From Magnetospirillum sp. XM-1 (GTDB lineage: Bacteria > Pseudomonadota > Alphaproteobacteria > Rhodospirillales > Magnetospirillaceae): a stretch of 64,000 bases of DNA. Both the position numbers and the translations under genes were made by a program. The notes under the pieces are model-generated. The model saw nothing but the letters and a program-made list of their open reading frames with translations. It did not search any database and was not told the origin of the DNA. This document shows, one piece after another, positions 1 through 28,303 of the stretch. The DNA is taken from assembly GCF_001511835.1 (NCBI RefSeq), contig NZ_LN997848.1, forward strand, positions 2,508,001-2,572,000. Direction: 5' to 3'. Every line of letters starts with the position of its first letter. Within the stretch, counting starts at the first letter, position 1.

Positions 1-197
1 GTCTCGGTCGGCAGCAGGGTCTCGCAGAATTCCGAGCCCAGATGGAGGCGGGTCACCGCCTCGTCCTCGACGCCATGGGGGAGCGGCGGCGCCGACCAAC
101 CCAGCGCCCCGGCGCAATCGGCCACCCGGAGCGGCCCATTGGCCGGCAGCCGCTCCAACTCCTTCGCCTGGGTCAAGGCCAGGGCGATGCCGCTCAT
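1..197 (-). CDS. Unidentified protein, N-terminal part only (runs off the left edge)
   Basis: The first 65 codons of a minus-strand gene are visible and the 3' end lies outside the window. The start ATG overlaps the TGA of the CcmF-like gene in an ATGA arrangement, so it is almost certainly the next gene of the same operon and translationally coupled. The visible residues (starting MSGIALALTQAKELERLP) show no signal peptide, membrane segment or Rossmann glycine motif. QHNDH operons usually also carry qhpG, an FAD monooxygenase; the start seen here does not look like a flavoprotein N terminus, so I do not assign that name. Confidence 0.6.
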   Translation of the reverse strand, partial: MSGIALALTQAKELERLPANGPLRVADCAGALGWSAPPLPHGVEDEAVTRLHLGSEFCETLLPTE

Positions 198-4531: not shown

Positions 4532-4537
4532 GGCGGG

Positions 4538-5629: not shown

Positions 5630-5646
5630 GGGTGGGCTCCCCTGAA

Positions 5647-5967
5647 TCACTTCTTGTTGAACACCGACTGAAGCTTGCGCCAGTCGCGCATGGCCGAGGG
5701 AACCTCGGTGCTCCAGTCCGGGTGGGTGTTGATGGTGTCGGGCACCTGGACCGGCCACCAGCACGGGTCGGAACAGCCGTAGAGATCGGCCTCCACCGGC
5801 TGGCACAGGGCGGCGATGCCGCCGAAGGGATCGACCTCCCAGCCGGGGTCCAGGGTCGAGGTGCAGCCGTTGACCACCTGCATGACGCGGGCTTCCGGGG
5901 CCTTGCCCTCCTCGGCGGCGCGCCGCACCTGCTCGGCCTTGCGGTTGACGGGTTTCAGATGCTTCAT
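5647..5967 (-). CDS. qhpC: Quinohemoprotein amine dehydrogenase gamma subunit (CTQ cofactor precursor)
   Basis: This 106-residue precursor consists of a 28-residue charged leader and a 78-residue mature chain. Spacing of the cross-linking residues agrees with the Paracoccus protein: thioether pairs Cys35-Glu44, Cys55-Asp61 and Cys69-Asp77, and the cysteine tryptophylquinone pair Cys65-Trp71 in the GCSDPCWW segment. The redox cofactor is therefore made from this protein's own side chains. The leader is expected to keep the chain unfolded for QhpD and then be cut by QhpE. The start overlaps the qhpD stop (ATGA), coupling substrate and modifying enzyme. Confidence 0.96.
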
Positions 5968-7391: not shown

Positions 7392-7395
7392 TTCC

Positions 7396-8955: not shown

Positions 8956-8978
8956 TCTCGATCTCCGGCAAATCATCC

Positions 8979-9003
8979 GCGGGGGCGGCGGAACCGCCCC
9001 CGC
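8979..9003. terminator. GC-rich hairpin between the aldehyde dehydrogenase gene and qhpA
   Basis: Perfect 10-base-pair inverted repeat (8979-8988 with 8994-9003, loop of five). On the minus strand there is no U-run after it, so it may be a partial terminator or an mRNA-processing hairpin that lowers qhp expression relative to the upstream aldehyde dehydrogenase. Confidence 0.5.
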
Positions 9004-9013
9004 TCCCTTTTTC

Positions 9014-10528: not shown

Positions 10529-10583
10529 CCTTTATTAAGCCGCTTCGTTGGTATGAAATCTTGTCAACATTAGGCCAAGAACC

Positions 10584-10599
10584 TATCGCCAAGGCGATA
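10584..10599. promoter_or_regulatory. Palindrome TATCGCC-AA-GGCGATA
   Basis: Perfect 7-base arms with a 2-base spacer, abutting (3-base overlap) the ATAACCA palindrome. It could be a second operator or, together with the next element, a hairpin ending the upstream transcript. Confidence 0.4.
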
Positions 10600-10614
10600 A
10601 CCACTTTTGGTTAT
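10597..10614. promoter_or_regulatory. Operator-like palindrome ATAACCA-N4-TGGTTAT (copy 1)
   Basis: Perfect 7-base arms around CTTT, between the YCF48-like gene and the aldehyde dehydrogenase start and overlapping the stop codon of the former. The same arms and spacing recur at 17415-17432 in front of the other half of this cluster. A shared regulator site is the simplest reading; the protein that binds is unknown. Confidence 0.6.
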
Positions 10615-11597
10615 GGGCTCTTGTTCTTCAGCTCCAGCCTGGTGACGCCGCCAAGCCCCGCCAGGACGACATCGGACTCCCCCACCGCCAGGGTGGAGGC
10701 AAGATTGATGCGGTCCGGCTGGGTGAAGGCGGAAAAGCCGCTGCCGTCGCTCCGGCCGGTCAGGACCGTTCCCGCCAGTCCGACCACCACCAGCCGGCCA
10801 TCGGCCAGCTGGACCGCGCCGCTCAGGCTTTGGGTGGTCGGGGATGGCAGCGCCGTCCAGGTCAGTCCGTCGTCTCTGGAGCGGAACAGCCGCCCCCCCA
10901 TGGCGGTGGCCAGCAGCGAGCGGTCGCCGAGGCCGAGGATTCTCCAGACCGAGCCCTTGATGGGCAGGGTGACGGTGGACCAGGAGCGGCCGCCATCGGC
11001 GGAGCGGAAGATGGTTCCCACCTCGGCCGCCACCAGGAGGCTTCCCGCCGCCGAGACGGCCACATGATTGAGGTGGCGGTCGGAATCCTCGCCGGTTCCC
11101 AGCGTGGCCGGGGCCCAACTGGCGCCTCCATCCTCGGTGACCAGCGCGGCGCCGTAAGCCCCGACGGCGATGCCCCGCTCCGGGGTCTCGAAGGCCAGCG
11201 ACATCAGCACCATGTCCGGGGCGGCCTGATGGGCCAGCGTCCAGGTTTCCCCGCCGTTGACCGTCTTGAGGATCACCCCGCCATGGCCCGCCGCCCAGCC
11301 GGTTTCCGGCCCGGTGAAGGCGACGGCGGTGAGCATGGTGTCGGTGGCGACGCTGCGCGCCTGCCGCCATGTGCGGCCCCCGTCGTCGGACAGCAGGATG
11401 GTGCCGTAATCCCCGACGGCGACCAGCCGCTTGCCGGCATAGGCAAGCTCGACCATGGGGGCGTGCTGCGCCATGGGGCCGCGGAAGGCGGCGCGTGGAG
11501 GAGGGGGCCTGATCCCCTCGGCTTGGGAGGGGGGAGCGGGGAGGGAGATCAGGCCCGCGAAGACGAACGCAAGAAGAGTCCGGGTTCTCATGTTCAT
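10611..11597 (-). CDS. YCF48/BNR-type beta-propeller, exported
   Basis: This 328-residue protein has a signal peptide (MRTRTLLAFVFAGLISLP...QA) and a series of blades with repeated DGG.TW or DDG.TW motifs (sDDGGRTW, vNGGETW, eDGGASW, aDGGRSW, rDDGLTW), as in YCF48/photosystem II assembly factor-like propellers. It starts 5 bases after the RND exporter stop, so the two are co-translated. Such propellers accompany DUF1302, DUF1329 and RND genes in many proteobacteria and probably act as a periplasmic accessory; no enzymatic residues are evident. ATG 11597 or 11591 could be used; both give the same signal peptide. Confidence 0.82.
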   Translation of the reverse strand: MNMRTRTLLAFVFAGLISLPAPPSQAEGIRPPPPRAAFRGPMAQHAPMVELAYAGKRLVAVGDYGTILLSDDGGRTWRQARSVATDTMLTAVAFTGPETGWAAGHGGVILKTVNGGETWTLAHQAAPDMVLMSLAFETPERGIAVGAYGAALVTEDGGASWAPATLGTGEDSDRHLNHVAVSAAGSLLVAAEVGTIFRSADGGRSWSTVTLPIKGSVWRILGLGDRSLLATAMGGRLFRSRDDGLTWTALPSPTTQSLSGAVQLADGRLVVVGLAGTVLTGRSDGSGFSAFTQPDRINLASTLAVGESDVVLAGLGGVTRLELKNKSP

Positions 11598-11602
11598 CTC
11601 CG

Positions 11603-13963
11603 TCAATGGGCGACCAGCGGTGCGCGGACCGGGCCGGTGCGCGGCACCGCCTTGTCGATGATCACTGCCAGGGCCGGCAGCAGGGTTATGGCCATCAGCA
11701 TGTTGATCATGAACATGAAGGTCAGCAGCAGCCCCATGTCGGCCTGGAATTTCAGCGCCGAGAACGACCAGGTGGCGATGCCGATGGAGAGCGTCAGGGC
11801 GGTGAAGATGGTCGCCACCCCCACCTCGATCAGCGATCGCTTGAAGGCGGTGACGATTTCCTCGCCGTGGGCCAGGTGGAACTGCAGGCGGTTGTAGATG
11901 TAGAAGGCGTAATCGACGCCGATGCCCACCGCCAGCACCATCACCGGCAGGGTGGCGACGGTCAGGCCGATGGACAGCTCCTTCATGAACCAGTAGCCGA
12001 GGAAGCTGGAAAGCGTCAGCGGCACGCAGCAGGCGATGGTGGCGCGCCAGTCGCGATAGGTGATGAAGACCAGGGCGACGATGGTGGCGTAGACCCAGGC
12101 CATCATGGGCAGCTCGGTGGTTTCCAGAACCTCGTTGATGGCGGCCTGGATGCCGGCGTTGCCGCTGGCCAGGCGGATATGGACGCCCTCCATGGGATAG
12201 GCGGCGCGGAACGACTTCACCGCCGCCACCACCTGCTTGATGGTTTCCGCCTTGTGGTCGGACAGATAGATGTTGGAGGCCAGCACCGTGCAGTTCTGGT
12301 TGAACAGCCCGGCATTGTCGGGGGCGAAGCCCATGGTGCTGGTCAGCGCCTGCTGCTCGAAGGGCAGGGCGGCCCGCTTGGGGTGCCCCTCGTTCAGGCC
12401 GGAATTGGCGGTCTTGACCACGTTGGGCAGGGCCAGCACCGAGATCACGCCCGGCTGATTGGCCATTTCCCAGCCGAAGCGGTCGATCAGGCTCATCACC
12501 GCGTAGCTGCCGCAGGATTCCGCCGGGGTCTCGAACACCACCGTCAGCACGTCGAGGCCGATGTCGAAATTGGCGGCGATGGACGCGGCGTCGAGATTGT
12601 AGCGGGAGTCCGCCCGCAGCTCGGGCACGCCGGCGTTGACGTGGCCCAGCTGGCGGTCCTGGCTCTGCCATGCCGCCACCACCATCAGCACCAGGCCGGT
12701 CAGGGCGATGGGATAGGCGTAGTGGGGCTCGGCCACCCGGGCCAGGACCGACATCCAGCGGTCGCGGTCGCGGCGCAGGCGTTCGACCTTCTCGGTGTAT
12801 TCCGGCGGGAACGAGAAATAACTGGCCACCACCGGCAGCATGATCAGGTTGGTGACGATCTTGTAGGCCACGCCGATGGAGGCGGTGATGCCCAGCTCGC
12901 GGATCATCGGGATGGGAATGAGCATCAGGGTGGCGAAGCCGACGAAGGCGGTGACCAGGGCCAGGGTGCCGGGAATCAGCAGGCTGGTGAAGCTGGTCCG
13001 GGCCGCCGTGTAGCCGTCGACCCCCAGCGCCACCTCCTTGGAAATGGCGTTGACCTGCTGCACGCCGTGGGAAACGCCGATGGCGAACACCAGGAAGGGG
13101 ACCAGGATGGCCAGCGGGTCCAGTCCGAAGCCCAGCAGGGTCAGGGTCCCGAACTGCCACACCAGGGACACCAGCGAGCAGACCAGCGGCAGGAAGGTCA
13201 TGCGCTTGGAGCGGGTGTACCAGTAGACGGCGGCGACGGTCAGCACGAAGGCCAGGGCGAAGAATTCCAGCACGCTGGTGGCGCTGTCGGCGATGTCGCC
13301 GATCTGCTTGACGAAGCCGATGATCTGGATCTGGTAGCGGTCGTCCTCGAAGCGCTCGCGGATTTCCGCCTCGATGCGGTGGTTGAGCTCCAGATAGTCG
13401 AGCGGCTTGCGGGTGGCGGGATCGGTTTCCAGCAGGTCGGCCACCACCATGGCGGCGCTGCCGTCACGGGCCACCAGGTTGCCCATGTAGCCGCCGATCA
13501 CCGTGTTGTCGCGGATGCGCACGATGCGTTCCGGCGTCAGCCGGTCGGGGGTGACGTCGCCGCCGATCACGTCCTCGGCCTTCAACCCTTCCTCGGTGAT
13601 TTCCAGCGAACGGGTGTTGGGGGTCCACAGCGACTGGACCGTGCGGCGGTCGACGCCGGGCAGGAACATGGTCGCCTGGGTGACCTCGTGAAGCCGCTTC
13701 AGCGCCTCGGCGTTCCAGATGTCGCCCTTTTCGGGGCGCAGCACGACGATGACGCGGTTGGCGCCGAACAGGTCGCCGCGATAGCGCTCGAAGGTTTCGA
13801 TGTATTCGTGCCCGGACGGAAGCTGCTTGTCGAATCCGGCGGACATCTTCAATTGAGCGCCGAAATAGCCCATGACGATGGTCAGAACCGCCAATGAGCA
13901 CAAGACGATGGCCCTGTTTTCGAAAAATACGGCCCCGAGGTGATCGACCACCCTCTTGAGCAT
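11603..13963 (-). CDS. RND-superfamily (MMPL-type) exporter
   Basis: This 786-residue protein has the duplicated RND architecture: a first helix near residue 20, a large periplasmic loop (about 50-230), a bundle of helices, a second loop, and a second bundle ending near the C terminus. The GIGVDYAFYIYNR motif in the second bundle is the proton-relay helix of MMPL/HAE2-type exporters. No membrane-fusion protein gene is adjacent, which separates it from drug-efflux HAE1 systems. Partners appear to be the DUF1302 and DUF1329 proteins upstream. The substrate is probably a hydrophobic or lipid-like compound. ATG 13963 is favoured by GGAG about 7 bases upstream. Confidence 0.86.
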   Translation of the reverse strand: MLKRVVDHLGAVFFENRAIVLCSLAVLTIVMGYFGAQLKMSAGFDKQLPSGHEYIETFERYRGDLFGANRVIVVLRPEKGDIWNAEALKRLHEVTQATMFLPGVDRRTVQSLWTPNTRSLEITEEGLKAEDVIGGDVTPDRLTPERIVRIRDNTVIGGYMGNLVARDGSAAMVVADLLETDPATRKPLDYLELNHRIEAEIRERFEDDRYQIQIIGFVKQIGDIADSATSVLEFFALAFVLTVAAVYWYTRSKRMTFLPLVCSLVSLVWQFGTLTLLGFGLDPLAILVPFLVFAIGVSHGVQQVNAISKEVALGVDGYTAARTSFTSLLIPGTLALVTAFVGFATLMLIPIPMIRELGITASIGVAYKIVTNLIMLPVVASYFSFPPEYTEKVERLRRDRDRWMSVLARVAEPHYAYPIALTGLVLMVVAAWQSQDRQLGHVNAGVPELRADSRYNLDAASIAANFDIGLDVLTVVFETPAESCGSYAVMSLIDRFGWEMANQPGVISVLALPNVVKTANSGLNEGHPKRAALPFEQQALTSTMGFAPDNAGLFNQNCTVLASNIYLSDHKAETIKQVVAAVKSFRAAYPMEGVHIRLASGNAGIQAAINEVLETTELPMMAWVYATIVALVFITYRDWRATIACCVPLTLSSFLGYWFMKELSIGLTVATLPVMVLAVGIGVDYAFYIYNRLQFHLAHGEEIVTAFKRSLIEVGVATIFTALTLSIGIATWSFSALKFQADMGLLLTFMFMINMLMAITLLPALAVIIDKAVPRTGPVRAPLVAH

Positions 13964-13997
13964 GGAAAACTCCTGGACTGACGGTTCTAAGGGGAAT

Positions 13998-14033
13998 GGC
14001 CGCCCCGGCAAGGGGAAGGGTGCCGGAGCGGCC
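13998..14033. terminator. Intercistronic hairpin between DUF1302 and RND genes
   Basis: A 13-base-pair stem with one mismatch (13998-14010 with 14021-14033) and a 10-base loop lies in the 78-base gap after the DUF1302 stop. No U-run follows on the minus strand, so attenuation or mRNA processing is more likely than full termination. Confidence 0.45.
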
Positions 14034-14041
14034 GGTGCGGA

Positions 14042-15724
14042 TCAGAACGAGGTGGAGACGCTGGCTCCCCAGAAATCCCGATCACGCATCAGGTTGTTGT
14101 CGCCACCGCCCCAATAGTTGACGTAGGTCAGGGCCAACTTCGCCCGGTCCTGGTAGTTGAAGTTCAGGCCGAGGGCCAAGGACATGCGGTCCTGAATGAA
14201 GGGCAGGGCGTTGGGCGTCGTTCCCTGCACGTCATGCGAGAAGTCGATGACCGGCGTCATGTTGACGGAGCTTCCGAACACTTCCGGGTAGACCACGCCG
14301 ATCTCGGCGATGTAGCCCCACGAGAAGCGGTCGGGGATGCTGTAGTTGGGCAGCAGGTAGGGGACGCTGCGGTCGCGGGCCAGGTTGGGGTAGTAGGCGG
14401 CCGCCGCCTCCACCAGGAAATAGCCGTCGGTGGCGCCGATCCTGTCCTGGAGGTTGCCCAGGACGGTGTTGGGCTCGAACAGATAATTGGCGGTAACGTG
14501 TCCCTGCCATTTCTTCTCTTCGACGAAGCCGCGGTTGTAGGTGCCGATGGAGTAGCGGCCCGAGGCCGGAACGGTCGGGTCGATGGCCACGGAATCGCGG
14601 GGACGGTAGGAAAGCTCGGCGCCCACCGCCACCGGACCGAGGCGGGAATTGGCCGAGACGCCGAACAGGTCGCGGTCCTCGCCGTAATCGTTGAAGAAGG
14701 TGGTCGGGGTCTGCGCCGTGGTGCCGGTGAAGCTCACCTGCGGCAGCTTGTCGTGGTAGTGCAGGTAATAGGCGCCGACTTCGGTGATGCCCAGGCGATA
14801 GCGCAAGGCGGCGCCGAACTGTCCGCTGTTCCTGGGATTGTGGGGTGAAACGCCCGGAACAAAGGTTTGGTTGGTGGCGCCGGGCGTCCCTTCGTCGCCG
14901 CCGTTGCCGCCGGCCGAGGCCGGCAGGAAGAAGTGGCGGCGGCCCGGTCCGACCACGTCGCTGGTCGAGAAGAAGGTGCCCACCGGATCGAAGGTGTAGG
15001 AGTTCCACATCACCTGGTAATAGGCTTCGGCGCTCAGGTTGTCGGTGAGCCCCGTGCTGGCGTAGATCATGGGCGCCGGCTTGAAGACTTCCTTCAACTG
15101 GGTGCCGGGGACGTGGAGCTTGCGGAAGTCGATGGCGTTGATGACGTTGATGCCGCCGGGGATGAAGATGTCCTCGCCCCAGCTCACCACCTGGTTGCCC
15201 ACCTTGATCTTGGCGTTGTTGCCGGCCCAGGTGAACGACTTCGACACATAGGCGTCGAGCAGTTCGGCATGGGGGTTCATCAGCAGCTTGGCCTCGTGCT
15301 CCAGCGCGGTGCGCCGGGTGTCGCCCGCCATGGCGTCGCCCGACCAGGTGCCGCGCACCAGGGCGCTCCATCCGTCCGGTCCCTTGAGGGACAGGTCGTG
15401 GGTGCCCTTGTAGACCAGCGAGACGATGTCACCCTTCTTGTAGTTCAGGTTGCCGCTGTCGGCGTTGAGGTTGTTGATGTCGGGATTGGACCCGGGAACC
15501 TCGCCGACGATGCGCGAACAGCCGCCGTTGTCGCGGCTGATGGATTTGCAGCTGGCGTTCTCCAGCCGCTGCTGGAAGCCGATGGACAAGGTGGTGTCGA
15601 AGCTGCCGGAGATCCCGCCATAGGTGAAATCGGCGGCATGGGCCTGGGTGCCCCAGGACAGTCCGGCCAGGATGGCGCCCGCGGCAACGCTGGCCCGCAG
15701 GAACGCCTTGTTTGAATAGCTCAT
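14042..15724 (-). CDS. DUF1302 outer-membrane beta-barrel protein
   Basis: This 560-residue exported protein begins with a signal peptide (MSYSNKAFLRASVAAGAILAG, cut after AHA). Alternating amphipathic strands and a C-terminal phenylalanine (STSF) are typical of an outer-membrane barrel. The sequence has the hallmarks of DUF1302: an FTYGGISGSFDTTLSIG start and a VSWGEDIFIPGGINVIN segment in the middle. DUF1302 proteins nearly always occur beside DUF1329 proteins and RND exporters, as here, and probably form the outer-membrane part of a lipid or hydrophobic-substrate pathway. GGGGGAA upstream of ATG 15724 supports this start. Confidence 0.88.
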   Translation of the reverse strand: MSYSNKAFLRASVAAGAILAGLSWGTQAHAADFTYGGISGSFDTTLSIGFQQRLENASCKSISRDNGGCSRIVGEVPGSNPDINNLNADSGNLNYKKGDIVSLVYKGTHDLSLKGPDGWSALVRGTWSGDAMAGDTRRTALEHEAKLLMNPHAELLDAYVSKSFTWAGNNAKIKVGNQVVSWGEDIFIPGGINVINAIDFRKLHVPGTQLKEVFKPAPMIYASTGLTDNLSAEAYYQVMWNSYTFDPVGTFFSTSDVVGPGRRHFFLPASAGGNGGDEGTPGATNQTFVPGVSPHNPRNSGQFGAALRYRLGITEVGAYYLHYHDKLPQVSFTGTTAQTPTTFFNDYGEDRDLFGVSANSRLGPVAVGAELSYRPRDSVAIDPTVPASGRYSIGTYNRGFVEEKKWQGHVTANYLFEPNTVLGNLQDRIGATDGYFLVEAAAAYYPNLARDRSVPYLLPNYSIPDRFSWGYIAEIGVVYPEVFGSSVNMTPVIDFSHDVQGTTPNALPFIQDRMSLALGLNFNYQDRAKLALTYVNYWGGGDNNLMRDRDFWGASVSTSF

Positions 15725-15741
15725 TTCAGGTTCCCCCTTGT

Positions 15742-17106
15742 TCAGCGGTCGCCTTGGCGGCGCAGCTCGCCCGGATCGAACAGATTCTTCCTGACCCGGC
15801 CCTCGCGGGCGGCCAGCCAATCGGTTTCCGGACCATCCTGGGTGGCGTTCTCGCCGATGTAGCGGTCGGCGCTGAGGTCGTAGCCGACGAATTCCTGCTG
15901 GACGCAGGCCGGCAGTTCCCAGGCCATCCACAGCGAGCCTTCCTGGACGCGCCACAGCTTGCCCTGGGCGTCGTAGAGGTCGGCGTGCAGCATCTGCCAG
16001 CTGTCCTCGTCCAGGTAGAAGACGCGCTTGGCGGCGTTGTGACGCATGCCGTCCCTGATGGTTCCCTCGACCTTCCAGACCCGGTGGAGCTCGTAGCGGG
16101 AAAGGTCCCGGTTGACGTATTCGCCCTGATAGATCTCGTGCAGGTCGGGGCGGCGGGCGCGCAGCTCATAGCTGTTGTAGGGGACGTACATCTCCATCTT
16201 GCCCGCCAGCTTCCACTCGTAGCGATCCGGCGAGCCGGCATACATGGGGTACTGGTCGACCATCTCCAGGTTCTCGTAACCCGGGACCGGATTGTCGTAG
16301 GCGAAGGTCGGGGCGCGACGCACCCGGCGCTGGCCGGGGAAGTACAGCCAGGCGTCGCCGCTCGGCCGGTCGATATAGTTCAGGACCAGGATCATCTCGC
16401 CGTTGCGGGCCGGCGGCGCCACCACGGTGTTGAGGATCATCCATTCCAGGTGGTCCACCTGATCGGCCGACTCCACCTTGGGATCGGACAGCGGATGCAG
16501 GACGCTCTGGCTCTGCTTCAGGCTGCCGAAATTGCCGTTCTTGCTCGAGAACACCGTGGTGTAGTGCTCGATCTTGCCTTCACCGGCATAGCGCAGCTTG
16601 AAGTTCCACAAGGCCTCGGTGCCGGTCTTGGGAATGGGGAACGGCACGGCGCCGCCCACGATGCCCTTGGCGTAGACGCCGTCGATGGTCGGCTTGGAGG
16701 CGTTGGCCGCCGTCCGCTCATAATACCACTTGGGATAGGCACAGGAGCGGTGGGTGGGATAGATGTCCAGGCGATAGCCGGGCTTGGTCTTGATCAGCTG
16801 GATCTGGCCCTCGGGCAGCTTGTCCTTGTACTGGTCGACGTTCTGGGCATCGATCGAGAACAGCTTCTTCTCGCCCTGATAGGGATTGGGGCGCGGGTCG
16901 CCCACCTTCCAGCCCGCCGGCGGCGTGGGGTTGCCTCCCTCCCAGGCGGGGATGGTGCCGTCCTTGTTGCCGGCCTTCTCCGCCCCCACCGGGGTCAGAT
17001 CCTTGCCGAGGCGTCCGATCTCGTCCGATGTCGGGCCAGCCATGGTCCCGAAGCTGAGCAGCACGGAAGCAGCAGCGCCGAGAGCGAGTGAATGAGCAAA
17101 TCGCAT
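15742..17106 (-). CDS. DUF1329 periplasmic protein
   Basis: This 454-residue exported protein has a signal peptide of about 23 residues. The body carries family-typical segments such as GGNPTPPAGWKVGDPRPNP near residue 60 and PGQRRVRRAP near residue 260. DUF1329 is related in fold to LolA/LolB-type lipid carriers (family knowledge), which fits a periplasmic shuttle between the RND pump and the DUF1302 barrel. The gene starts with a clear GGGAGG 4-5 bases upstream and ends 17 bases before the DUF1302 start. It is the first gene of the long minus-strand unit. Confidence 0.88.
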   Translation of the reverse strand: MRFAHSLALGAAASVLLSFGTMAGPTSDEIGRLGKDLTPVGAEKAGNKDGTIPAWEGGNPTPPAGWKVGDPRPNPYQGEKKLFSIDAQNVDQYKDKLPEGQIQLIKTKPGYRLDIYPTHRSCAYPKWYYERTAANASKPTIDGVYAKGIVGGAVPFPIPKTGTEALWNFKLRYAGEGKIEHYTTVFSSKNGNFGSLKQSQSVLHPLSDPKVESADQVDHLEWMILNTVVAPPARNGEMILVLNYIDRPSGDAWLYFPGQRRVRRAPTFAYDNPVPGYENLEMVDQYPMYAGSPDRYEWKLAGKMEMYVPYNSYELRARRPDLHEIYQGEYVNRDLSRYELHRVWKVEGTIRDGMRHNAAKRVFYLDEDSWQMLHADLYDAQGKLWRVQEGSLWMAWELPACVQQEFVGYDLSADRYIGENATQDGPETDWLAAREGRVRKNLFDPGELRRQGDR

Positions 17107-17534
17107 GGAACCTCCCTAGCTATGGTCATGGCTGCCCCTGCCTTTCGGCTGGAATTTAGGTCGATACGCATACTCGTAAACGCAGATAAACTGCCTGATA
17201 TAGGCAATAATTCAGCGTTGCCGGGCTGCGTTTCATCAGCAGGCATGGCTTTGGTATGTCATTGTTGGACTCTTGTTAGAGTCTTCTGTCTCTTTTTTCT
17301 ACGTACAGCCTCATCAACGGACGATGTATCCGTTGAGCCCGCCGACGGTTGATTATAATTATTCAACCTTTTCTGCAGGCATTACTGTGATACCAAGGCT
17401 GTCCATTCCGTGAAATAACCAAATGTGGTTATTCGGAGGGGGAGGAGTGCATGTTAGGTTAGGTCATCTGGTAGCCCATTCGGTGCGGCTGCGTACCGTG
17501 CGGGCCACCTCACTTCGGCTGAGGTTGCTGACGG
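17107..17534. other. Divergent control region between the DUF1329 gene and the response regulator
   Basis: These 428 bases contain no credible gene. They are much richer in A+T than their surroundings and hold promoters for both directions. They also hold the ATAACCA palindrome copy 2 and a strong Shine-Dalgarno (GGAGGGGGAGGAG) followed by a three-codon reading frame, ATG TTA GGT TAG at 17451-17462, in frame with the regulator start. I could not fix a sigma-70 or sigma-54 promoter with confidence. Confidence 0.6.
17415..17432. promoter_or_regulatory. Operator-like palindrome ATAACCA-N4-TGGTTAT (copy 2)
   Basis: Perfect arms around AATG, extended by one further matching pair to AATAACCA and TGGTTATT. 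It lies 103 bases upstream of the response regulator start and about 310 upstream of the DUF1329 start. Arms and spacing are identical to the copy at 10597-10614. Confidence 0.62.
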
Positions 17535-18209
17535 ATGCTTCGTGCCTTGATCGTGGATGATCACCCGCTGTTCCGCGAAGCCCTGGCCTTTGTCATTTCC
17601 CGTATCACCGACGATTACGTCTGCGTCGAGGCCGAATCCATGGAGCAGGCCACCAGCCTGCTGACCGGCGGTTCGCCGTTTGACGTCATCATGCTCGACC
17701 TGGGCTTGCCCGGGGCAAGCGGGCTGGCTGGCATCCTCAGCATTCGCGGCCTGGCCCCGTCGACTCCGGTGGTCGTGGTGTCGGCCGTCGAGGATGCCGA
17801 CACCATTCGCCGCGCCGCCTGCTTCGGGGTCAGCGGCTATATCCTGAAAAGCTCTCAAGGCAGCGTCATGCATGCGGCGCTGGCCAAGATCCTGGCCGGC
17901 GGCACCCATTTCCCCCAGGAGACGGGAGACGGCATCGCCCCCGGTCTTCTCCGCCCGGCCGAATTGGAGATGCTGACGCCGCGGCAGATGACCGTCCTGC
18001 GGCTTCTGGGGGAGGCGAAGTCCAACAAGCAGATCGCCTACGAGCTCAATATCAGCCAGGAAACGGTCAAGATCCATATCTCGGCCATTCTGCGCAAACT
18101 CGGCGCCAGCAGCCGGGCCCAGGCGGTCATGATGGCGCATCAGATGCGCGAGCTTCCGCGGCTGGTCGACGCGGACCCGGCACACGACGCCCCGTCCGGA
18201 GCCGCCTGA
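17535..18209 (+). CDS. NarL/LuxR-family response regulator
   Basis: This 224-residue protein has a receiver domain with acidic pocket Asp8/Asp9, phosphoacceptor Asp55 (MLDLGLPG) and Lys105, then a LuxR-type helix-turn-helix (about residues 145-210; TPRQMTVLRLLGEAKSNKQIAYELNISQETVKIH). No kinase is directly adjacent on this strand; the nearest is the membrane kinase at 20071-21666, which is paired with its own FixJ-type regulator. The gene borders the palindrome shared by the export and amine units, so it is a candidate activator of them. That link is an inference from position. The Shine-Dalgarno before its ATG is weak, whereas a strong one serves a tiny upstream reading frame. Confidence 0.88.
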   Translation: MLRALIVDDHPLFREALAFVISRITDDYVCVEAESMEQATSLLTGGSPFDVIMLDLGLPGASGLAGILSIRGLAPSTPVVVVSAVEDADTIRRAACFGVSGYILKSSQGSVMHAALAKILAGGTHFPQETGDGIAPGLLRPAELEMLTPRQMTVLRLLGEAKSNKQIAYELNISQETVKIHISAILRKLGASSRAQAVMMAHQMRELPRLVDADPAHDAPSGAA

Positions 18210-18326
18210 TCCGGCCGCCGATTTTTCCGTAGTTCCCGGGGATTATCGTCGCCCAGGCGCCTCGATACAGTTTTCCCGTACTTGCCGGGCTTTTGCCGAG
18301 CCCGCAGGAAATCGGGGGGGCGGAAT

Positions 18327-19463
18327 TTGAGGCAGGAAGATGCTGCACGGCTTGCGACCGTTCCGGCCGGAAGCGGGCTTGCCGGTATGGTCGAACTGGA
18401 TATCCCGATGGATGACGGTTCGGTTCGCTGTTTCAGCGCGTGGCGCTGCCGGCACGACCTGGGCTTCGAGCGTTCCATCGGCACCGTCAGGATCGAGCCC
18501 GGGCTGACCCCTGCCGACACCGACCGTGAGGCGTTCGCCGCCCTGATGCAGGCCGGCTCCCTGAGGCTGCCCTATGGTGGGGCATGCGGCGGCATCGATG
18601 CTGATCTCCGGCGGTTGTCCACGGCCGAGCTGGGACGTCTGGCCCGCTGTTTCGTCCAGTCCTTTCCCGACATGGCGGCGACGGGCCGGTCGGCCTTTTC
18701 CGGCGGGCTGGCCGGGACGCTGCTGTCTGGCTGGGTTGATGGCGGGGGGCGGTCGCTGTGGCTGGGTATCGAGGGGGGAACTCCCTCCAGGCTCGGTCGG
18801 GAGGAGGCCATCGCCCTGGGCGCCTTCACCCAGATTCGCCGTTTCGCAGGCAAGGAGGGACGCTGGGCGCTGTGGGGTTGCGACCAGTCCTCGCTGCTGC
18901 TGGCGCGCCGGTTGTGTGCCCTCGGGTGGGAACTGACGGGCGTTTCCGACCGGCGGGGCGCCGTGGTCAACGCGTGGGGGCTGACCCCGTCGGAATTGGC
19001 CTGCGGCATGGCCAATGTGGATGGTGTGGTGTCCATGGCCGGAGAGCGGGGAAGCGTTTCGGCGGACACCCCCCTGGACGGGGGAGTGGAACTGGTGGTG
19101 GTGGCCGGTCGGGAGGGTCCGGACGCCGCCGCCCTGGGGGGCACGGGGTGCCGCATGGTGGTGGAACTGGTTCCTGGTGGCATCAGCCGCCGGACGGAAG
19201 CCGAGCTTGCCGCCCGTGGAATCGTCGTGCTCCCCGAGATCGTCGCGACCTCGGGCCAGTCGCTGCTGACCCATCTCGGGTGGCTGCGGCGGCGCTGGCG
19301 CCGCGACTGGACCGATGGCGAGATGAAGGACAGGCTGCTGCAGCGGATGCACGCCATGGCGGAAGGGGACGAGGGGCCCACCGGCCGGGCCGAGGCCACC
19401 GCCGGGGCGCTGCGCTTCATCGGCGCGGCGCAGGCGGCGGGGCGCTCGCTGCTGGCGGTCTGA
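18327..19463 (+). CDS. Catalytically dead glutamate dehydrogenase homologue (pseudoenzyme)
   Basis: This reading frame of about 378 residues aligns along its length with the glutamate dehydrogenase encoded at 21726-22994. Shared blocks include MDDGS, FSAWRCRHD, LRLPYGG and GVSDRRGAVV. Key residues are gone: TKGGIRFHP is SIGTVRIEP, the PYGGGKG lysine is cysteine (PYGGACG), the PAPDVYT aspartate segment is ATGRSAF, and the dinucleotide motif GYGNAG is GCDQSS. The frame is nevertheless unbroken and uses normal high-GC codons, arguing for a retained, perhaps regulatory, function. The start is uncertain: TTG 18327 aligns best, TTG 18282 and ATG 18388 are alternatives. It follows the response regulator by 117 bases and converges on the FixJ-type gene. 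Confidence 0.75.
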   Translation: MRQEDAARLATVPAGSGLAGMVELDIPMDDGSVRCFSAWRCRHDLGFERSIGTVRIEPGLTPADTDREAFAALMQAGSLRLPYGGACGGIDADLRRLSTAELGRLARCFVQSFPDMAATGRSAFSGGLAGTLLSGWVDGGGRSLWLGIEGGTPSRLGREEAIALGAFTQIRRFAGKEGRWALWGCDQSSLLLARRLCALGWELTGVSDRRGAVVNAWGLTPSELACGMANVDGVVSMAGERGSVSADTPLDGGVELVVVAGREGPDAAALGGTGCRMVVELVPGGISRRTEAELAARGIVVLPEIVATSGQSLLTHLGWLRRRWRRDWTDGEMKDRLLQRMHAMAEGDEGPTGRAEATAGALRFIGAAQAAGRSLLAV

Positions 19464-20078
19464 TCAGGCGTCCTTGCCCAGCAGCCGCAGGTGCAGCCGG
19501 GTCAGTTCGGACAGGCTGGCGGTTCCCATCTTCTTCAGGACGTTGGCGCGGTGGCTTTCCACCGTACGGATTCCGATTTTCAGCTCGGCGGCGATCAGCT
19601 TGTTGGCCAGGCCGCGCACCATCAGCTCCATCACCGACTTCTCGCGCCGGCTGAGGCGGCGATAGCGGGTGAAGGCGTTGGATTTCTCGCCGGCCCGCTG
19701 GCGGGATTGGGCGTCGCGCACGAAGGCCTGGCGCACCCGATTCAGAAAGTATTCGTCGGCGAAGGGCTTTTCCAGGAAGTCGATGGCGCCGTTCCGGAAG
19801 GCGTTGACCGCCACCGGCACGTCGCCGTGGCCGGTGATGATGATGACCGGCAGCGGCTGGGGCTGGGCCTCCATCCATTGCAGCAGTTCAAGCCCGCTCA
19901 TCCCCGGCATGCGCTGGTCCACCACCAGGCAGCCCGGCCGGGCCGGCTGATAGGCGGATATGAAGCTCTCGCCATCGGCAAAGGTCTCGCAGGGCAGGTC
20001 GGCAAGGGCGCACATCACCGAGATGCAGTGGCGGACGGCGGAATCGTCATCGACGACGAAGACTGTCGGTTCAGGCAT
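19464..20078 (-). CDS. FixJ-family response regulator
   Basis: This 204-residue protein has a receiver domain (Asp10, Asp11, phosphoacceptor Asp54 in VVDQRMPGMSGLELL, Lys104 in FLEKPF) and a LuxR-type helix-turn-helix from about residue 140 (RLSRREKSVMELMVRGLANKLIAAEL). The start overlaps the histidine-kinase stop by 8 bases, so the two form a co-translated pair. FixJ/TodT/TtrR-type proteins of this form are activators. The likely targets are amino-acid catabolism genes nearby, but no binding site is identified. Confidence 0.92.
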   Translation of the reverse strand: MPEPTVFVVDDDSAVRHCISVMCALADLPCETFADGESFISAYQPARPGCLVVDQRMPGMSGLELLQWMEAQPQPLPVIIITGHGDVPVAVNAFRNGAIDFLEKPFADEYFLNRVRQAFVRDAQSRQRAGEKSNAFTRYRRLSRREKSVMELMVRGLANKLIAAELKIGIRTVESHRANVLKKMGTASLSELTRLHLRLLGKDA

Positions 20079-21666
20079 GGCTCACCAGGGGAAGGGTGAA
20101 GGAAAAGCAGGCGCCGTCGGGGCCGTTGCGGGCCAGCCACAGGCGTCCGCCGTGGGATTCGACGATGGAGCGGCAGATGGGCAGGCCGAGCCCCATTCCC
20201 GAAGGCTTGGTGGTGAAGAACAGGTCGAACAGCGGCCCCACCTTGTCCTCGGGGACGCCGGGGCCGGTGTCGGCCACCGACACCTCGACCGTCCGCTCGC
20301 GGCGGGTGGCGGCGATGGCGATGCGCCCGCTTCCGTCGGGCCGCTCGCGGTTGGCCAGGGCGTCGATGCTGTTGCGCAGCAGGTTGAGCAGTACCTGGTC
20401 CAACTGCACCGGGTCGATCCAGACCGGCTGCAGGTCGGGAGGCAGGTCCACGGTCAAGGTGATGCCGTGCCGGCGGATTTCCGGCATCACGAAGCCCAGG
20501 ATGCCGTCCAGGGCGGCCTTCAGCTCCACCTGGGCGGGCTGGCCGTCCTGGCGCAGGAAGCCGCGGATGGACCGCAGCACCTCGGCGGCGCGCTCGGCCT
20601 CGGCCACCGCCCGGTTCATCAGGTCCAGCACCTCGGCCTGGTCGCCGCCCCGGGCCAGCAACTGGCGCGAGGCGCGGGTGTAGCCCATGGTGGTGAACAG
20701 CGGCTGGTTCAATTCGTGCGCCAGACTCGACGCCATCTCGCCGATCAGGCTGAGGCGGGCCACCCGCGCCAGTTCGGCCCGGCGCTGGCCCAGGCTGGCC
20801 TCCAGGCGCCAGCGCTCGCTGACCACCGCGCCGACCAGCAGGCCGGTGGCGGCCAGCGCCACCATCACCGTCTGGTAGTAGGTCAGGTCCTGCCAGTGCC
20901 CGGGCAACACGGACAGGCCGGCGATGACGCCCATCTGGACTCCCAGAACCGCCACCGTCGTGCCGGCCAGGCCCCGGCGCATGGCAACCCAGATCACCGG
21001 CAGGAACAGGACATAGAGAATCTTCGACGGGTCGGGGACCAGCGGATTGAAGGTGACGGCCAGGGCGCAGGCCACCGCCAGGGCGTGCGAGGCGGTCTCG
21101 AACCGCGAGCGTCGCGGACCGTTGCCCGGCGTACGGCGCCGGAGCAGCAGCAGGAACGGCGTCACGGTCAGGATGGCGATGACGTCGCCCACCCAGTACT
21201 GGGCGGTGACGGCCGGCAGCTCGCTCCACGGCAGCAATCCGGCCGCCATGTAGGGCAGGGCGAAACCCAGCGCGGCCGCCACGGCGGCCACCGGCACCAT
21301 GATCACCAGCCAGACGGTGTCGTACATGCGCCCCAGGGTGGCGTCGAAGGCCAGGCGGCCCGACAGCAGCCATACTCCGGCGCCATAGGCGGCGACGATC
21401 AGCAGGTTGCTCAACGCCAGTACGGGAATGGGGGCCGGGCTGCCGCGCACCAAGAGGTCCCCCAGCATGAGGGCGGCGAAGGTCAGCGCCGCGCCGTATC
21501 CCCGCCGCTCCAGCAGCAGCAGGGCGACGTAAAGGCCGGCCGGCGGGTTCCAGGGGGTGATGTTGATGGCGGGCGGGTCGTGGATGAAGGTGCCCCAGTC
21601 CACCACGACATAGACGGCGAGAAAGACGAGGGGGAACAGCTTTCCGCCCATAGCGAAGCGCCGCAC
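20071..21666 (-). CDS. Membrane sensor histidine kinase (MASE1-like sensor domain)
   Basis: The N-terminal half (about 300 residues) has eight or so membrane helices of the MASE1 type, with the characteristic ITPWNPPAGL segment near residue 35. The C-terminal half is a kinase: H-box SSLAHELNQPL, N-box NLLRNSIDAL, then DTGPGVP and GMGLGL. It is paired with the FixJ-type regulator through an 8-base overlap. GTG 21666 is chosen as start because GGAGGAG lies 8-9 bases upstream; an ATG at 21651 would remove five residues. The integral-membrane sensor suggests a hydrophobic or membrane-state signal. Confidence 0.88.
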   Translation of the reverse strand: MRRFAMGGKLFPLVFLAVYVVVDWGTFIHDPPAINITPWNPPAGLYVALLLLERRGYGAALTFAALMLGDLLVRGSPAPIPVLALSNLLIVAAYGAGVWLLSGRLAFDATLGRMYDTVWLVIMVPVAAVAAALGFALPYMAAGLLPWSELPAVTAQYWVGDVIAILTVTPFLLLLRRRTPGNGPRRSRFETASHALAVACALAVTFNPLVPDPSKILYVLFLPVIWVAMRRGLAGTTVAVLGVQMGVIAGLSVLPGHWQDLTYYQTVMVALAATGLLVGAVVSERWRLEASLGQRRAELARVARLSLIGEMASSLAHELNQPLFTTMGYTRASRQLLARGGDQAEVLDLMNRAVAEAERAAEVLRSIRGFLRQDGQPAQVELKAALDGILGFVMPEIRRHGITLTVDLPPDLQPVWIDPVQLDQVLLNLLRNSIDALANRERPDGSGRIAIAATRRERTVEVSVADTGPGVPEDKVGPLFDLFFTTKPSGMGLGLPICRSIVESHGGRLWLARNGPDGACFSFTLPLVSHA

Positions 21667-21725: not shown

Positions 21726-22994
21726 TCAGTTGGTAAAGTAGGCCTGGGTGCCGTGGGCCGCAATGGCGTCGGACAGGCGCTGCAGCGCATGGACATAGGC
21801 GGCCGTGCGCATGGAGGCCTTCTTGTCCTGGTGGATGTTCCACACGTGGCGTCCCTCGGCCTCCATGATGGCCTTGAGGCGCTGGTGAACCTCCTCCAGC
21901 TGCCAGTAATAGCCCTGGCGGTTCTGCACCCACTCGAAGTAGGACACGGTCACGCCGCCGGCATTGGCCAGGATGTCGGGCAGCACGGTGATGCCCTTGG
22001 CCTCCAGCAGGCCGTCGGCCTCCTTGGTGACGGGGCCGTTGGCCAGCTCCAGGATGACCTTGGTGCGGATGGTGTCGGCGTTGTCGATGTGGATCTGGTC
22101 TTCCAGCGCCGCCGGAACCAGCAGGTCGCTTTCCACCGCCAGCAGTTCGTCGGCGGCCACCACGCGGGCGCGGCCGCTCTTGGCGTAGGCCGAGACCGAG
22201 CCGGCGGCGTCCTTGGCCTCCAGCACGGCGTCGGGGTCCAGCCCGTCACCCGACACGATGGCGCCCCGCGAATCCGAGATGCCGATGATCTTGTAGCCGT
22301 CGGCATGCAGCAGCCTGGCGATGTGGATGCCGGCGTTGCCATAGCCCAGGACGACGACGCGCTTGGCCGACTTGTCCAGGCCCAGCTCGGTCTCCAGGTG
22401 CTTGACCAGATAATAGCCGCCGCGCGCCGTGGCGTCGTCGCGGCCCAGCGAGCCGCCCAGGGGGATCGGCTTGCCGGTGATCACCGCCGGGCTGGGCTGG
22501 CGGACCATGGAGCTGTACTCGTCGGCCATCCAGCCCATGATCATGGAATTGGTGTAGACGTCGGGCGCCGGGATGTCGCGGTCGGGGCCGATCATGCTGG
22601 CGAAGGCCTGGACATAGGCGCGCGACAGGCGCTCGAGCTCGGCGCGCGACAGGCCGCGCGGGTCCACCTGCACCGCGCCCTTGCCGCCGCCATAGGGCAG
22701 GTTCATCACCGCGCACTTGAAGGTCATCCAGAAGGCCAGGGTCGAGACCTCGCCCACCGTCGAGGCGGGATGGAAGCGAATCCCGCCCTTGGTCGGGCCG
22801 CGGGTGTCGTCGTAGCGGCAGCGCCAGGCGGTGAACGACCGCCGCGAGCCGTCGTCCATGCGGATGGTCAGGCGGGTGGTCAGCGTCTCCTTGGGGTGAC
22901 GGAGCTTCTCCAGCACCTCGGGGTCCACCTGCACGTGGCGCGCCGCCTCGTCAAGTCGGGTGAGGGCGTGGGAAAGCATTGCCATGTCGGTCAT
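21726..22994 (-). CDS. Glu/Leu/Phe/Val-type dehydrogenase, probable glutamate dehydrogenase
   Basis: This 422-residue protein has all the active-site features that the neighbouring homologue lacks: Lys69 in TKGGIRFHP, Lys93, Lys105 in PYGGGKG, Asp145 in PAPDVYT, and the nucleotide-binding GYGNAG. The enzyme interconverts glutamate and 2-oxoglutarate plus ammonium. In this setting it would recycle the 2-oxoglutarate needed for transamination of amino acids fed to the ferredoxin oxidoreductase. The start ATG 22994 has GGAGAG 8 bases upstream. Related amino-acid dehydrogenases share the fold, but length and motifs favour glutamate. Confidence 0.92.
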   Translation of the reverse strand: MTDMAMLSHALTRLDEAARHVQVDPEVLEKLRHPKETLTTRLTIRMDDGSRRSFTAWRCRYDDTRGPTKGGIRFHPASTVGEVSTLAFWMTFKCAVMNLPYGGGKGAVQVDPRGLSRAELERLSRAYVQAFASMIGPDRDIPAPDVYTNSMIMGWMADEYSSMVRQPSPAVITGKPIPLGGSLGRDDATARGGYYLVKHLETELGLDKSAKRVVVLGYGNAGIHIARLLHADGYKIIGISDSRGAIVSGDGLDPDAVLEAKDAAGSVSAYAKSGRARVVAADELLAVESDLLVPAALEDQIHIDNADTIRTKVILELANGPVTKEADGLLEAKGITVLPDILANAGGVTVSYFEWVQNRQGYYWQLEEVHQRLKAIMEAEGRHVWNIHQDKKASMRTAAYVHALQRLSDAIAAHGTQAYFTN

Positions 22995-24108: not shown

Positions 24109-24567
24109 TTAGGCCGGCGGGGCGGCCCCGTTGCCCTTGACCGCCTTCAGTGCGAAGCTCGACTTGATGTTCTGCACTCCCGGCAGGTGAATCAAGGTTT
24201 CGCGCAGGAAGCGGTCGAAGGCGGCGATGTCGGCGGCGGCGATGTGCATCAGATAGTCCTGCTCGCCGGTCATGGCGTAGCATTCCAGCACCTCGGGGCA
24301 TTGCCGCACCGCGTCCTCGAAGGCGGCGGCGCGATGCAGGTCGAGCGAGGCGGCGACGAAGACGTCGAGGCCAAGGCCCAGCGCCGCCGGATCGACCAGG
24401 GCGGTATAGCCCCGGATCACCCCGGATTCCTCCAATAGCCGCACCCGCCGCCAGCAAGGCGAGGTGGACAGCCCGACCCGGGTCGACAACTCGGCGATGG
24501 ACATCCGTCCGTCCCGCTGCAATTCGGCGATGATGCGTCGGTCGAAAGTGTCCGGGTCGGTCAGCAT
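24109..24567 (-). CDS. Lrp/AsnC-family transcriptional regulator
   Basis: This 152-residue protein has an N-terminal winged helix-turn-helix (DRRIIAELQRDGRMSIAELSTRVGLSTSPCWRRV) and a C-terminal ligand-binding RAM domain with the VLECYAMTGEQDYLM signature. It is divergent from the indolepyruvate:ferredoxin oxidoreductase gene, the classic layout for an amino-acid-responsive local regulator. The 230-base gap between them carries a perfect 17-base palindrome and three AAGTAT-type elements. Control of the oxidoreductase and TrpB-like genes by an aromatic amino acid is inferred. Confidence 0.92.
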   Translation of the reverse strand: MLTDPDTFDRRIIAELQRDGRMSIAELSTRVGLSTSPCWRRVRLLEESGVIRGYTALVDPAALGLGLDVFVAASLDLHRAAAFEDAVRQCPEVLECYAMTGEQDYLMHIAAADIAAFDRFLRETLIHLPGVQNIKSSFALKAVKGNGAAPPA

Positions 24568-24662
24568 GAATCGTCTGCAATCATGGTATTGGTCGGAAAA
24601 ATCATCTTCAAACCTAGCGTCACGCGGCTATTAAAGCAAAGAAATGCCGTGGATATTGGATT

Positions 24663-24700
24663 ATACTTCCTGCCATAAAGTATTTCTACTACCGAAGTAT
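24663..24700. promoter_or_regulatory. Triple AAGTAT element upstream of the oxidoreductase gene
   Basis: ATACTT at 24663-24668 and AAGTAT at 24678-24683 form an inverted pair. A third AAGTAT follows at 24695-24700, 17 bases after the second. Multiple degenerate sites in helical phase are typical of Lrp/AsnC-type binding. Confidence 0.45.
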
Positions 24701-24709
24701 GATGAATAT

Positions 24710-24726
24710 TTGCTGCAATGCAGCAA
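24710..24726. promoter_or_regulatory. Perfect palindrome TTGCTGCA-A-TGCAGCAA
   Basis: Eight-base perfect arms around a single A, midway between the divergent lrp-type gene and the oxidoreductase gene. It is a strong operator candidate for the adjacent regulator. Confidence 0.55.
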
Positions 24727-24797
24727 GACTATGACGAATGTCAAGCCTGACAAAGAATTAGGCGGATAAGTAAAGCATCGCGAAAGGGAGGGGCCGG

Positions 24798-27700
24798 ATG
24801 GAGGCATCCGCGGTCAATGGCGGTGTTTGGCCTGAACGGGCGTTCCTGACCGGAACGCAGGTGCTGGTGCGGCTGCCGCTGGAACAGGCGCGGCGCGACC
24901 GGGCGGCAGGGCTCGGCACCGGCGGCTTCATCTCGGGCTATCGCGGTTCGCCGCTAGGCGGCTACGACAAGGCGCTGTGGCGAGCCTCGGCCGAACTGGA
25001 GGCGGCCGGCATCGTCTTTCGCCCGGCCATCAACGAGGAGATGGCCACCACCGCCATCATCGGCAGCCAGCAGGTTGGGCTGTTTCCCGGCTCGCGCCGC
25101 GACGGTGTCTTCGCCATCTGGTACGGCAAGGGCCCTGGCCTCGACCGTGCCGGCGACGCCTTCAAGCATGCCAATTCGCTGGGTTCGTCGCCGCTGGGCG
25201 GAGTGCTGGCGGTGGTCGGTGACGATCACGGCGCCATGTCGTCGTCCATGGCGCACCAGAGCGAACAGCTGATGATGGCCTGGATGATGCCGGTGCTGGT
25301 GCCGGCGGGATTGCAGGATTACCTCGATTTCGGGCTGCTGGGCCTGGCGATGTCGCGGTTCTCGGGCTGCTGGAGCGGCCTGATCACGGTGAGCGAGGTG
25401 GTGGAGAGCGGCGCGGTGGTGGAGACCGCCGCCGGGCCGGAGATCGTCCGCCCGGTGTTCGACGCCCCGCCCGGCGGGTTGCACATCCGCCTGCGCGATC
25501 CCCAGCTCGCCCAGGAATCAAGGCTGTGGGAGCACAAGCTCGGCGCCGTCAGGGCCTTCGCCCGCGCCAACCGCATCGACCGGGTGGTGTGGGACAGCCC
25601 GGCGCCCCGCTTCGGCATCGCGGCGGCGGGCAAGGCGTGGCTCGACCTCCGCCAGGCGCTGGACGATCTCGGCATCGATGCCGCACGGGCGGCCGAGCTG
25701 GGCCTGCGGCTCTACAAGGTGGGCATGAGCTGGCCGCTGGAGCAGGACGGCGCACTGGCCTTCGCGCGGGGCCTGCGCACGGTGCTGGTGGTCGAGGAAA
25801 AGCGCGGAATCATCGAGCCGGCCCTCAAGGAGCTGTTCTATCACCTGCCGGCCGACCAGCGGCCGCAGGTGCTGGGCAAGACCGATGCGGCCGGCCGGCC
25901 GCTGCTGCCCTCGACCGGCGAGCTGTCGCCCGAACTGATCGCCCGCGTCCTGGTCGAGCGGCTGGGCCTGGGCGCCGATCCCGCCATCCGTGCCCGGCTC
26001 GACCGCGCCGAGGCCGCCCGCCGGGCGGCGGAAAGCGCTCCGCTGGCTCCGCGTCCGCCCTTCTTCTGCTCGGGCTGCCCGCACAACTGCTCGACCCGCG
26101 TGCCCGAGGGCAGCCGCGCCCTGGCCGGAACCGGCTGCCACGTCATGGCCGCCTGGATGCCGAGACAGACCGCCAGCGTGCTGCACATGGGGGCCGAGGG
26201 CGCCAACTGGGTGGGAGTGCAGCCGTTCAGCGACATCGGGCACGTCTTCCAGAACCTGGGCGACGGCACCTATGTCCATTCCGGCAGCACCGCCATCCGT
26301 CAGGCGGTGGCCGCCGGCATCACCATCACCTACAAGATTCTCTACAACGACGCCGTCGCCATGACCGGCGGCCAGCCGCTGGACGGCCAGCCCGACATCG
26401 CCCGCATCACCCATCAGGTCCACCACGAGGGCGTCGGCCGGATCGCGGTGGTGTCGGACGATCCCGGCCGCCACCGCCGGAGCGGGCTGGCCGACGGCGT
26501 CACCTTGCATCCCCGCGCCGAACTCGATCGGGTCCAGCGCGAACTGCGCCGGTCGCCGGGCGTGTCGGTCCTGATCTACGACCAGGGCTGCGCCGCCGAG
26601 AAGCGCCGCCGTCGTCGCCGGCACGAACTGGCGGCGCCCACCCGCCGGGTGGTGATCAACGAGGAGGTCTGCGACGGCTGCGGCGATTGCCTGACGGCGT
26701 CCAACTGCGTCTCGCTGCTGCCGGTGGCCAGCCCCGACGGGGTCAAGCGCCGGGTCGACCAGTCGGCTTGCAACCAGGACTTCTCGTGCGCCGACGGCTT
26801 TTGCCCCAGTTTCGTCACGGTGGAGGGCCACCGCGCCGCCCGGCCGCCGATCATGCCGCCCCCGGTCGAATTGCCGCCGCCCGCCGCCGCCCAGGAACGC
26901 GGCCGATCGATCCTGGTGGCCGGAATCGGCGGCACAGGTGTGGTGACCATCACCCAGATCATCGGCCATGCCGCCTTCGCCGACGGTCTGGCGGCGACCA
27001 CGCTCGACTTCAACGGCCTGGCCCAGAAGGGCGGCGGCGTGCTCGGCTATGTCCGTCTGGCCGCCACCGCCGAGATGCTGCACGCGCCTCGGATCGGACT
27101 GGGCGGCGCCGATTCGCTGCTGGCCTGCGACATGGTGGTGGCGACCGGCTGGGCGGCGCTGTCCCGGCTGGATTCCGAGCGGACCAGGGCGGTGATCAAT
27201 CTCGACGTGGCCCCCACCGCCGCCAGCGTCCTCGACCCCGACGCGCTGCCGGACGAGGCCGGGCTGCACCGGGCGCTGGCCGCCCGGCTGGGGCCGGGAG
27301 CGGCCCGCTTCGTTTCCGCCGGCGAAGCGGCGCGGCGGCTGTCGGGCGATGCCATCTTCACCAACATCGTCTTGCTGGGCCATGCCTGGCAGAGCGGCCT
27401 GATTCCACTGTCCGAGGCGGCCATGGTTCATGCCATCCGCCTCAACGGCGTTGACGTGGACGACAACCTGGCGGCCTTCGCCTGGGGGCGCTGGCTGGCC
27501 CACGACGCCCCGGCCGCCACCGCCGGTCTTGGCCTGGACGCCCCGGCCGCCGCCGCCGAGCCCGAACTGGCCGAACTGGTCGAGGCCAATGCCGCCCGGC
27601 TGACCGACTACCACGACGCGGCCCTGGCCGAACGCTACCGGGCGCTGGTGGCCAGGGTGGAGCGGCAGGACCGCGCCCTGGCCGGCGGTGGGCTGCGCCT

Positions 27701-28226: not shown

Positions 28227-28303
28227 TACCGGACGACCTTTGATATGCCGGTCGGTATGAAATCAATAGGCCGGGAACCGGCCGAACGAGGGAGGAGATG
28301 AAC

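Follow-up and report, generated by a model that had tools for sequence, protein, structure and literature searches.

A maintained glutamate dehydrogenase homologue without catalytic residues in Magnetospirillum sp. XM-1 and its possible role as a partner of the enzyme

A 64-kb stretch of the Magnetospirillum sp. XM-1 genome (the window, whose positions are used for all coordinates below) holds a gene for a homologue of glutamate dehydrogenase (GDH) that has kept the fold of the enzyme without its catalytic residues (Table 1). From comparison with its relatives, we conclude that this protein, hereafter pseudo-GDH, is almost certainly a conserved and maintained pseudoenzyme and not a recent pseudogene. 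Judging by the residues it has lost, it should hold neither glutamate or 2-oxoglutarate nor the dinucleotide cofactor NAD(P) in the usual way. By analogy with a known inactive subunit, we tentatively favor a role as a partner or modulator of GDH. Such an inactive subunit has already been described in Thermus, but there most of the active site is retained; a family in which catalytic and cofactor residues have been erased, yet which is kept intact across relatives, would show the fold of a central metabolic enzyme turning into a regulator.

From its TTG codon the frame runs without a stop for 378 codons, survived in only one of 2000 shuffles that preserved its mononucleotide composition, and is confirmed by homologues, in agreement with an original prediction for this stretch that had reported about 378 codons free of stops and frameshifts. 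Alternative starts lie at a longer in-frame TTG (18282) and at an ATG at residue 21. Pfam recognizes ELFV_dehydrog_N at 53.6 bits (cut-off 25.3) and ELFV_dehydrog at 40 bits (cut-off 23.4); matches to the NCBIfam GDH equivalogs are weak, at 79 bits (cut-off 620) and 75 bits (cut-off 750). The AlphaFold2 model has the GDH fold, with a predicted local distance difference test score (pLDDT) below 50 for residues 1–17. Rfam gave no match at gathering level between 15000 and 26000, no tRNA was found in the window, and a promoter and terminator scan gave a result at chance level.

In GDH the substrate is held by active-site lysines and a serine. We aligned 14 members of the pseudo-GDH family with 28 GDHs (42 rows), using a residue numbering that we take to be that of C. 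symbiosum GDH for K89, K113, K125, D165 and S380. The enzyme residue at these five positions is present in 28 of 28 GDHs and in none of the 14 family members. In XM-1, D165 has become Ser122 within a whole segment replaced by an unrelated one, and S380 aligns with Thr315. The dinucleotide loop is broken at its second glycine and also at its third, which is Ser in eight members and Ala in six. Two of the replacements are fixed throughout the family, K113 to Gln and the second loop glycine to Asp, whereas that of K125 is not. The loss of both substrate lysines, the catalytic-aspartate motif and GxGxxG had been predicted, and the alignment extends it to a third lysine (K89) and the substrate serine. 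It likewise upholds the claim that structural blocks are retained, namely MDDG, WR-x-R, LPYGG, G184, D208, E280, P303 and G310, with D208, the acidic residue ending strand 2, present in 13 of 14 members. Twenty columns, Q75, D186, T131, H316, R241, R322 and R340 among them, hold a residue that 13 or more of the 14 members share and that fewer than 10% of the 28 GDHs have. The GDH rows of this table and of the tree below were picked from the matches in hand; near-copies and some remote matches (L006, L008, L015, L017, L023, L025, L028, L029, L031 and L042/L050) and further rows (P0012-P0014, P0016, P0022 and P0024-P0032) were left unused, and rows derived from loci span the full interval between stops, which gives some of them extra N-terminal residues.

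Table 1. Positions of the pseudo-GDH gene, its altered sites and the neighboring genes in the window
Feature	Positions	Strand	Remarks
Pseudo-GDH gene	18327..19463	+	378 residues from the TTG at 18327; predicted GDH fold, catalytic residues lost
Ile51 codon, replacing substrate lysine K89	18477..18479	+	Ile, Leu, Met or Val in 14/14 of the family; Lys in 28/28 GDHs
Gln75 codon, replacing substrate lysine K113	18549..18551	+	Gln in 14/14 of the family; Lys in 28/28 GDHs
Cys87 codon, replacing catalytic lysine K125	18585..18587	+	Cys 11, Ser 1, Gly 1, Ala 1 of 14; Lys in 28/28 GDHs
Segment of about residues 119-136, replacing the catalytic-aspartate PAPD motif	18681..18734	+	Loop modelled with low confidence, followed by a strand containing GTxLSGW
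G184-C-D186-Q-S-S, replacing the GxGxxG dinucleotide loop	18876..18893	+	Second Gly to Asp in 14/14; Gly in 28/28 GDHs
LuxR-type response regulator	17535..18209	+	Upstream, same strand; best NCBIfam match ErdR, below cut-off
FixJ-like response regulator	19464..20078	-	NCBIfam score 217 bits, below the cut-off of 255; its 3' end adjoins that of the pseudo-GDH gene
MASE1 histidine kinase with FixL-like kinase core	20071..21651	-	Start at 21651 chosen by eye; searches used 20074-21660
Active-looking GDH	21726..22994	-	422 residues; both Pfam domains and all motifs kept; 85% identical in SpK

Beside the XM-1 gene, 13 further relatives were found; with about 8000 candidates scored per protein search, the resulting family of 14 is a lower bound. 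Protein searches gave P0002-P0005 (73–86% identity), P0006-P0009 (38–46%), P0018-P0020 (38–45%) and P0023. A first scan of genome contigs, with P0005 as the query, returned no match; a second, with A2, gave a member in Magnetospirillum aberrantis SpK (L011:9908-11041, 44–45% identical). Thirteen members, all except P0023, were placed in the tree and form a single branch with 100/100 support, although six of the 13 rows carry a warning for atypical residue composition and long branches could distort the topology; within it the XM-1 and SpK copies fall into different sub-branches. The family is consistent with one loss of catalysis, the specific replacement residues having been kept since.

Pseudo-GDH is about 30–33% identical to the neighboring clade of small GDHs, with which it shares both Pfam domains and the MDDG...WR[CS]R strand motif, and from which it differs in lacking the catalytic residues and, it seems, the N-terminal helices and in standing on a separate long branch. 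At the second strand, WR-x-R-x-D occurs in all 14 family members, A[WF]RCR[YH] in 19 of the 28 GDHs (the 17-row clade of the XM-1 GDH, P0021 and L022) and [YF]RVQH in seven of the remaining nine. These motifs suggest descent from GDHs of the A[WF]RCR[YH] type; in the tree, an origin beside the histidine kinase-linked GDHs is compatible with the data (p = 0.17 in the approximately unbiased test). The separate long branch also led us to set aside a lineage-specific duplication of the neighboring GDH gene. Plasmid carriage was likewise rejected: the matches listed (20 of 173, 5 of 11 and 5 of 185 records) show 26–36% identity, the level of real GDHs, and all records lie below 60%. One scan of viral contigs found no relative, and no description of such a family turned up among the open-licence PubMed Central (PMC) texts listed.

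Substitution patterns place pseudo-GDH under purifying selection. Between the XM-1 and SpK copies, the nonsynonymous and synonymous rates are dN 0.557 and dS 1.45, giving a dN/dS of about 0.38, a rough ratio that comes from one distant pair with dS near saturation; in the same genome pair the GDH gene has a ratio of 0.16, the kinase gene 0.29 and the regulator gene 0.25. A Fisher test independent of dS, from which gapped columns and residues 1–29 were excluded, found variation within the close clade at 4 of the 54 columns that are invariant in nine distant members, compared with 105 of 268 others (p = 1.3e-6).

The reading of pseudo-GDH as a partner of GDH begins with the active-looking gene that the original prediction had placed 2.3 kb away; it proved to encode a whole GDH with all motifs, convergent with the pseudo-GDH gene at a distance of 2.26 kb. 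Within the genus, the pseudo-GDH gene is present in XM-1 alone of 17 genomes and GDH in three of the 17. Across the order, two of 317 genomes carry the gene, XM-1 and G437, which we take to be the SpK genome G424 from its identical contig places and scores; seven of the 317 reach a threshold that also catches close GDH. Among 55 genomes at the family level, GDH at ≥75% identity occurs in six, including both carriers. The chance of this co-occurrence is 0.010 for the family and 0.0004 for the order, figures that have n = 2 and ignore relatedness. In a class sample of 385 genomes, 23 had a match, the best besides XM-1 (178 bits) scoring below XM-1's own GDH (189 bits). Per genome, the top five or six candidate places were scored for class and order, up to 35 for the family and all for the genus. 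XM-1 further contains a match to the family of large NAD-GDHs.

We envision that pseudo-GDH would retain GDH-type subunit contacts and would bind either the true GDH, in a mixed or capping assembly, or its kinase and regulator pair; such binding would tune glutamate catabolism, and an effector may bind in the altered cleft. The co-occurrence in both carriers, the adjacency in XM-1 and the precedent of Thermus GdhA favor a GDH partner. Thermus thermophilus GdhA (PDB 3AOE) is the catalytically inactive regulatory subunit of a hetero-hexameric GDH, and is reported to be the subunit by which leucine activates the complex (PMC9570180). The XM-1 family shares with it a GDH fold whose catalytic lysine is lost. 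GdhA, however, keeps the equivalents of K89, K113, D165 and S380 together with GxGxxG, whereas the XM-1 family has lost all four and its loop is broken; the gene arrangement also differs, the XM-1 gene being convergent to GDH and the SpK gene unlinked. The leucine-site aspartate D166 (PMC9570180) is not conserved in the family (0 of 14; Gly 9, Arg 3, Leu 1, Val 1), although an Asp stands one column earlier in seven of 14 members and an alignment shift is possible. For the leucine-site R135, whose residue is unsure (the arginines are numbered 133 and 134 here), Arg occurs in six of 14 members at the first position and in none at the second. Because the aspartate is not conserved in place, leucine sensing at a GdhA-type site is unlikely. 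Since GdhA keeps most of its substrate residues and the nucleotide loop, the XM-1 family does not belong to the GdhA type, although it may operate in a similar way. Bacillus RocG and GudB (PDB 3K92 and 3K8Z) are, respectively, a trigger enzyme and a cryptic GDH, in which the active site is kept or activity is lost by a small repeat; unlike the XM-1 family, they are not stripped of catalytic motifs.

Several observations weigh against this interpretation. The GDH N-terminal helices seem to be absent from pseudo-GDH, whose residues 1–21 have an identity of 0.00 to the XM-1 GDH, and GDH-type contacts may be weaker. The SpK gene lies on a different contig from the GDH module. Genomes G014, G431 and G449 have the module without pseudo-GDH, from which it follows that GDH does not need it. 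These three points count against a strict subunit. The co-occurrence, too, comes from two genomes, one of them a draft, with shared ancestry ignored. Pseudo-GDH also evolves faster, with 44% identity between XM-1 and SpK as opposed to 85% for GDH, and its GC content at third codon positions (GC3) is 0.83, compared with 0.93 for GDH, which argues for looser constraint or lower expression. Finally, its dS of 1.45 exceeds the 0.60–0.79 of the module genes in the same pair, a hint that the copies may predate the species split, be transferred or be less codon-biased; taken with the different sub-branches, it suggests that the copies are older than the split or that one was transferred.

It is possible, if on balance unlikely, that pseudo-GDH has instead been neofunctionalized independently of GDH, its cleft rebuilt for another ligand or reaction through Gln75, Asp186, Arg241, His316, Arg322 and Arg340, so as to serve as a sensor or another enzyme. 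The 20 family-specific columns speak for such rebuilding, and so does the SpK gene, which stands apart from GDH beside other genes: judging by their translations, presumably a frame resembling HD-type hydrolases on one side and, on the other, one resembling HAD phosphatases with glycine-cleavage genes after it. Pfam, however, finds only the two GDH domains, Cys87 is not invariant, and both carrier genomes have GDH. We regard as doubtful the more specific proposal that the two ancestral sites have been lost and a new one formed with the fixed Gln, Asp, His and Arg, which would make the protein a dedicated metabolite sensor or allosteric partner switching the catabolic GDH on or off in Magnetospirillum and its relatives. 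Of what was originally proposed, the pseudoenzyme has stood, given the shared losses, intact frames and dN/dS below 1; a regulatory subunit of the true enzyme is possible; an amino-acid sensor working through the old pocket finds weak support at best, because the substrate lysines and serine are gone in all 14 members.

Quite improbable is a sensor or regulator that acts on the neighboring response regulators or the MASE1 kinase and not on GDH itself. The XM-1 gene does lie between two response regulators, but the separate SpK contig and the modules without pseudo-GDH in G014, G431 and G449 speak against it, as does synteny with G014. XM-1 and G014 are colinear over 3-18181, and the match to the module resumes at 19464; in G014 the module is found beyond the opposite end of the 3-18181 block, a distance of about 22 kb separating its GDH from the regulator. 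The interval 18181-19464 is thus a rearrangement junction relative to G014, and for this reason the neighborhood of the XM-1 gene says little. In G010 the ends of contigs C83 and C29 flank the site, one ending at window position 18146 and the other starting at 19462; since this assembly gap falls where the gene would be, its absence from G010 is not secure.

A decaying or neutral relic is very improbable: the presence of the gene in only two of the 317 genomes searched in the order, its faster evolution and its lower GC3 would fit decay, but 13 further relatives have identical losses, two replacement residues are invariant in 14 of 14, and both the dN/dS and the Fisher test indicate constraint. 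The shared substitutions and the dN/dS, the latter from that single distant pair, had been proposed as checks, and the suspicion of a recent pseudogene, with no orthologues elsewhere and a ratio near 1, was not borne out. An active dehydrogenase with unusual catalytic residues and relaxed or shifted specificity is hardly credible, for despite the whole fold, G184 and D208, no member of the family retains any of the three lysines, D165, S380 or the second loop glycine, the third loop glycine is Ser or Ala, and the loop Asp presumably sits where the NAD(P) pyrophosphate should lie.

Relatives of the GDH, the MASE1 kinase and the FixJ-like regulator adjoin one another in G010, G014, SpK, G431 and G449; GDH, an ATP-binding protein and a response regulator stand together in Azospirillum brasilense, and in G562 the kinase lies beside GDH, where the piece examined ends. 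As far as seen, the pseudo-GDH gene adjoins this module only in XM-1. The module is possibly a dedicated control circuit for a catabolic GDH, and the three-gene unit may govern how Magnetospirillum and Azospirillum break down glutamate. G431 has two FixJ-like regulators, one on each side of GDH (L055:6797-9591). Upstream of the SpK module, a frame at L053:172-2520 reads like what we take to be a nitrous-oxide reductase.

On the other side of the pseudo-GDH gene, relatives of the ErdR-like regulator in G007 and G001 (L063 and L064) have one in-match stop each, TAG and TGA. Adjoining this regulator in XM-1, genes for an aldehyde dehydrogenase, a YCF48/BNR protein, an MMPL exporter, a DUF1302 protein and a DUF1329 protein lie in a row on the reverse strand (9014-17106). 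At 24109-29668 there follow an AsnC/Lrp regulator, a 1142-residue indolepyruvate-oxidoreductase-like fusion (POR, DUF6537) and a long TrpB-like PALP enzyme, presumably an amino-acid metabolism neighborhood.
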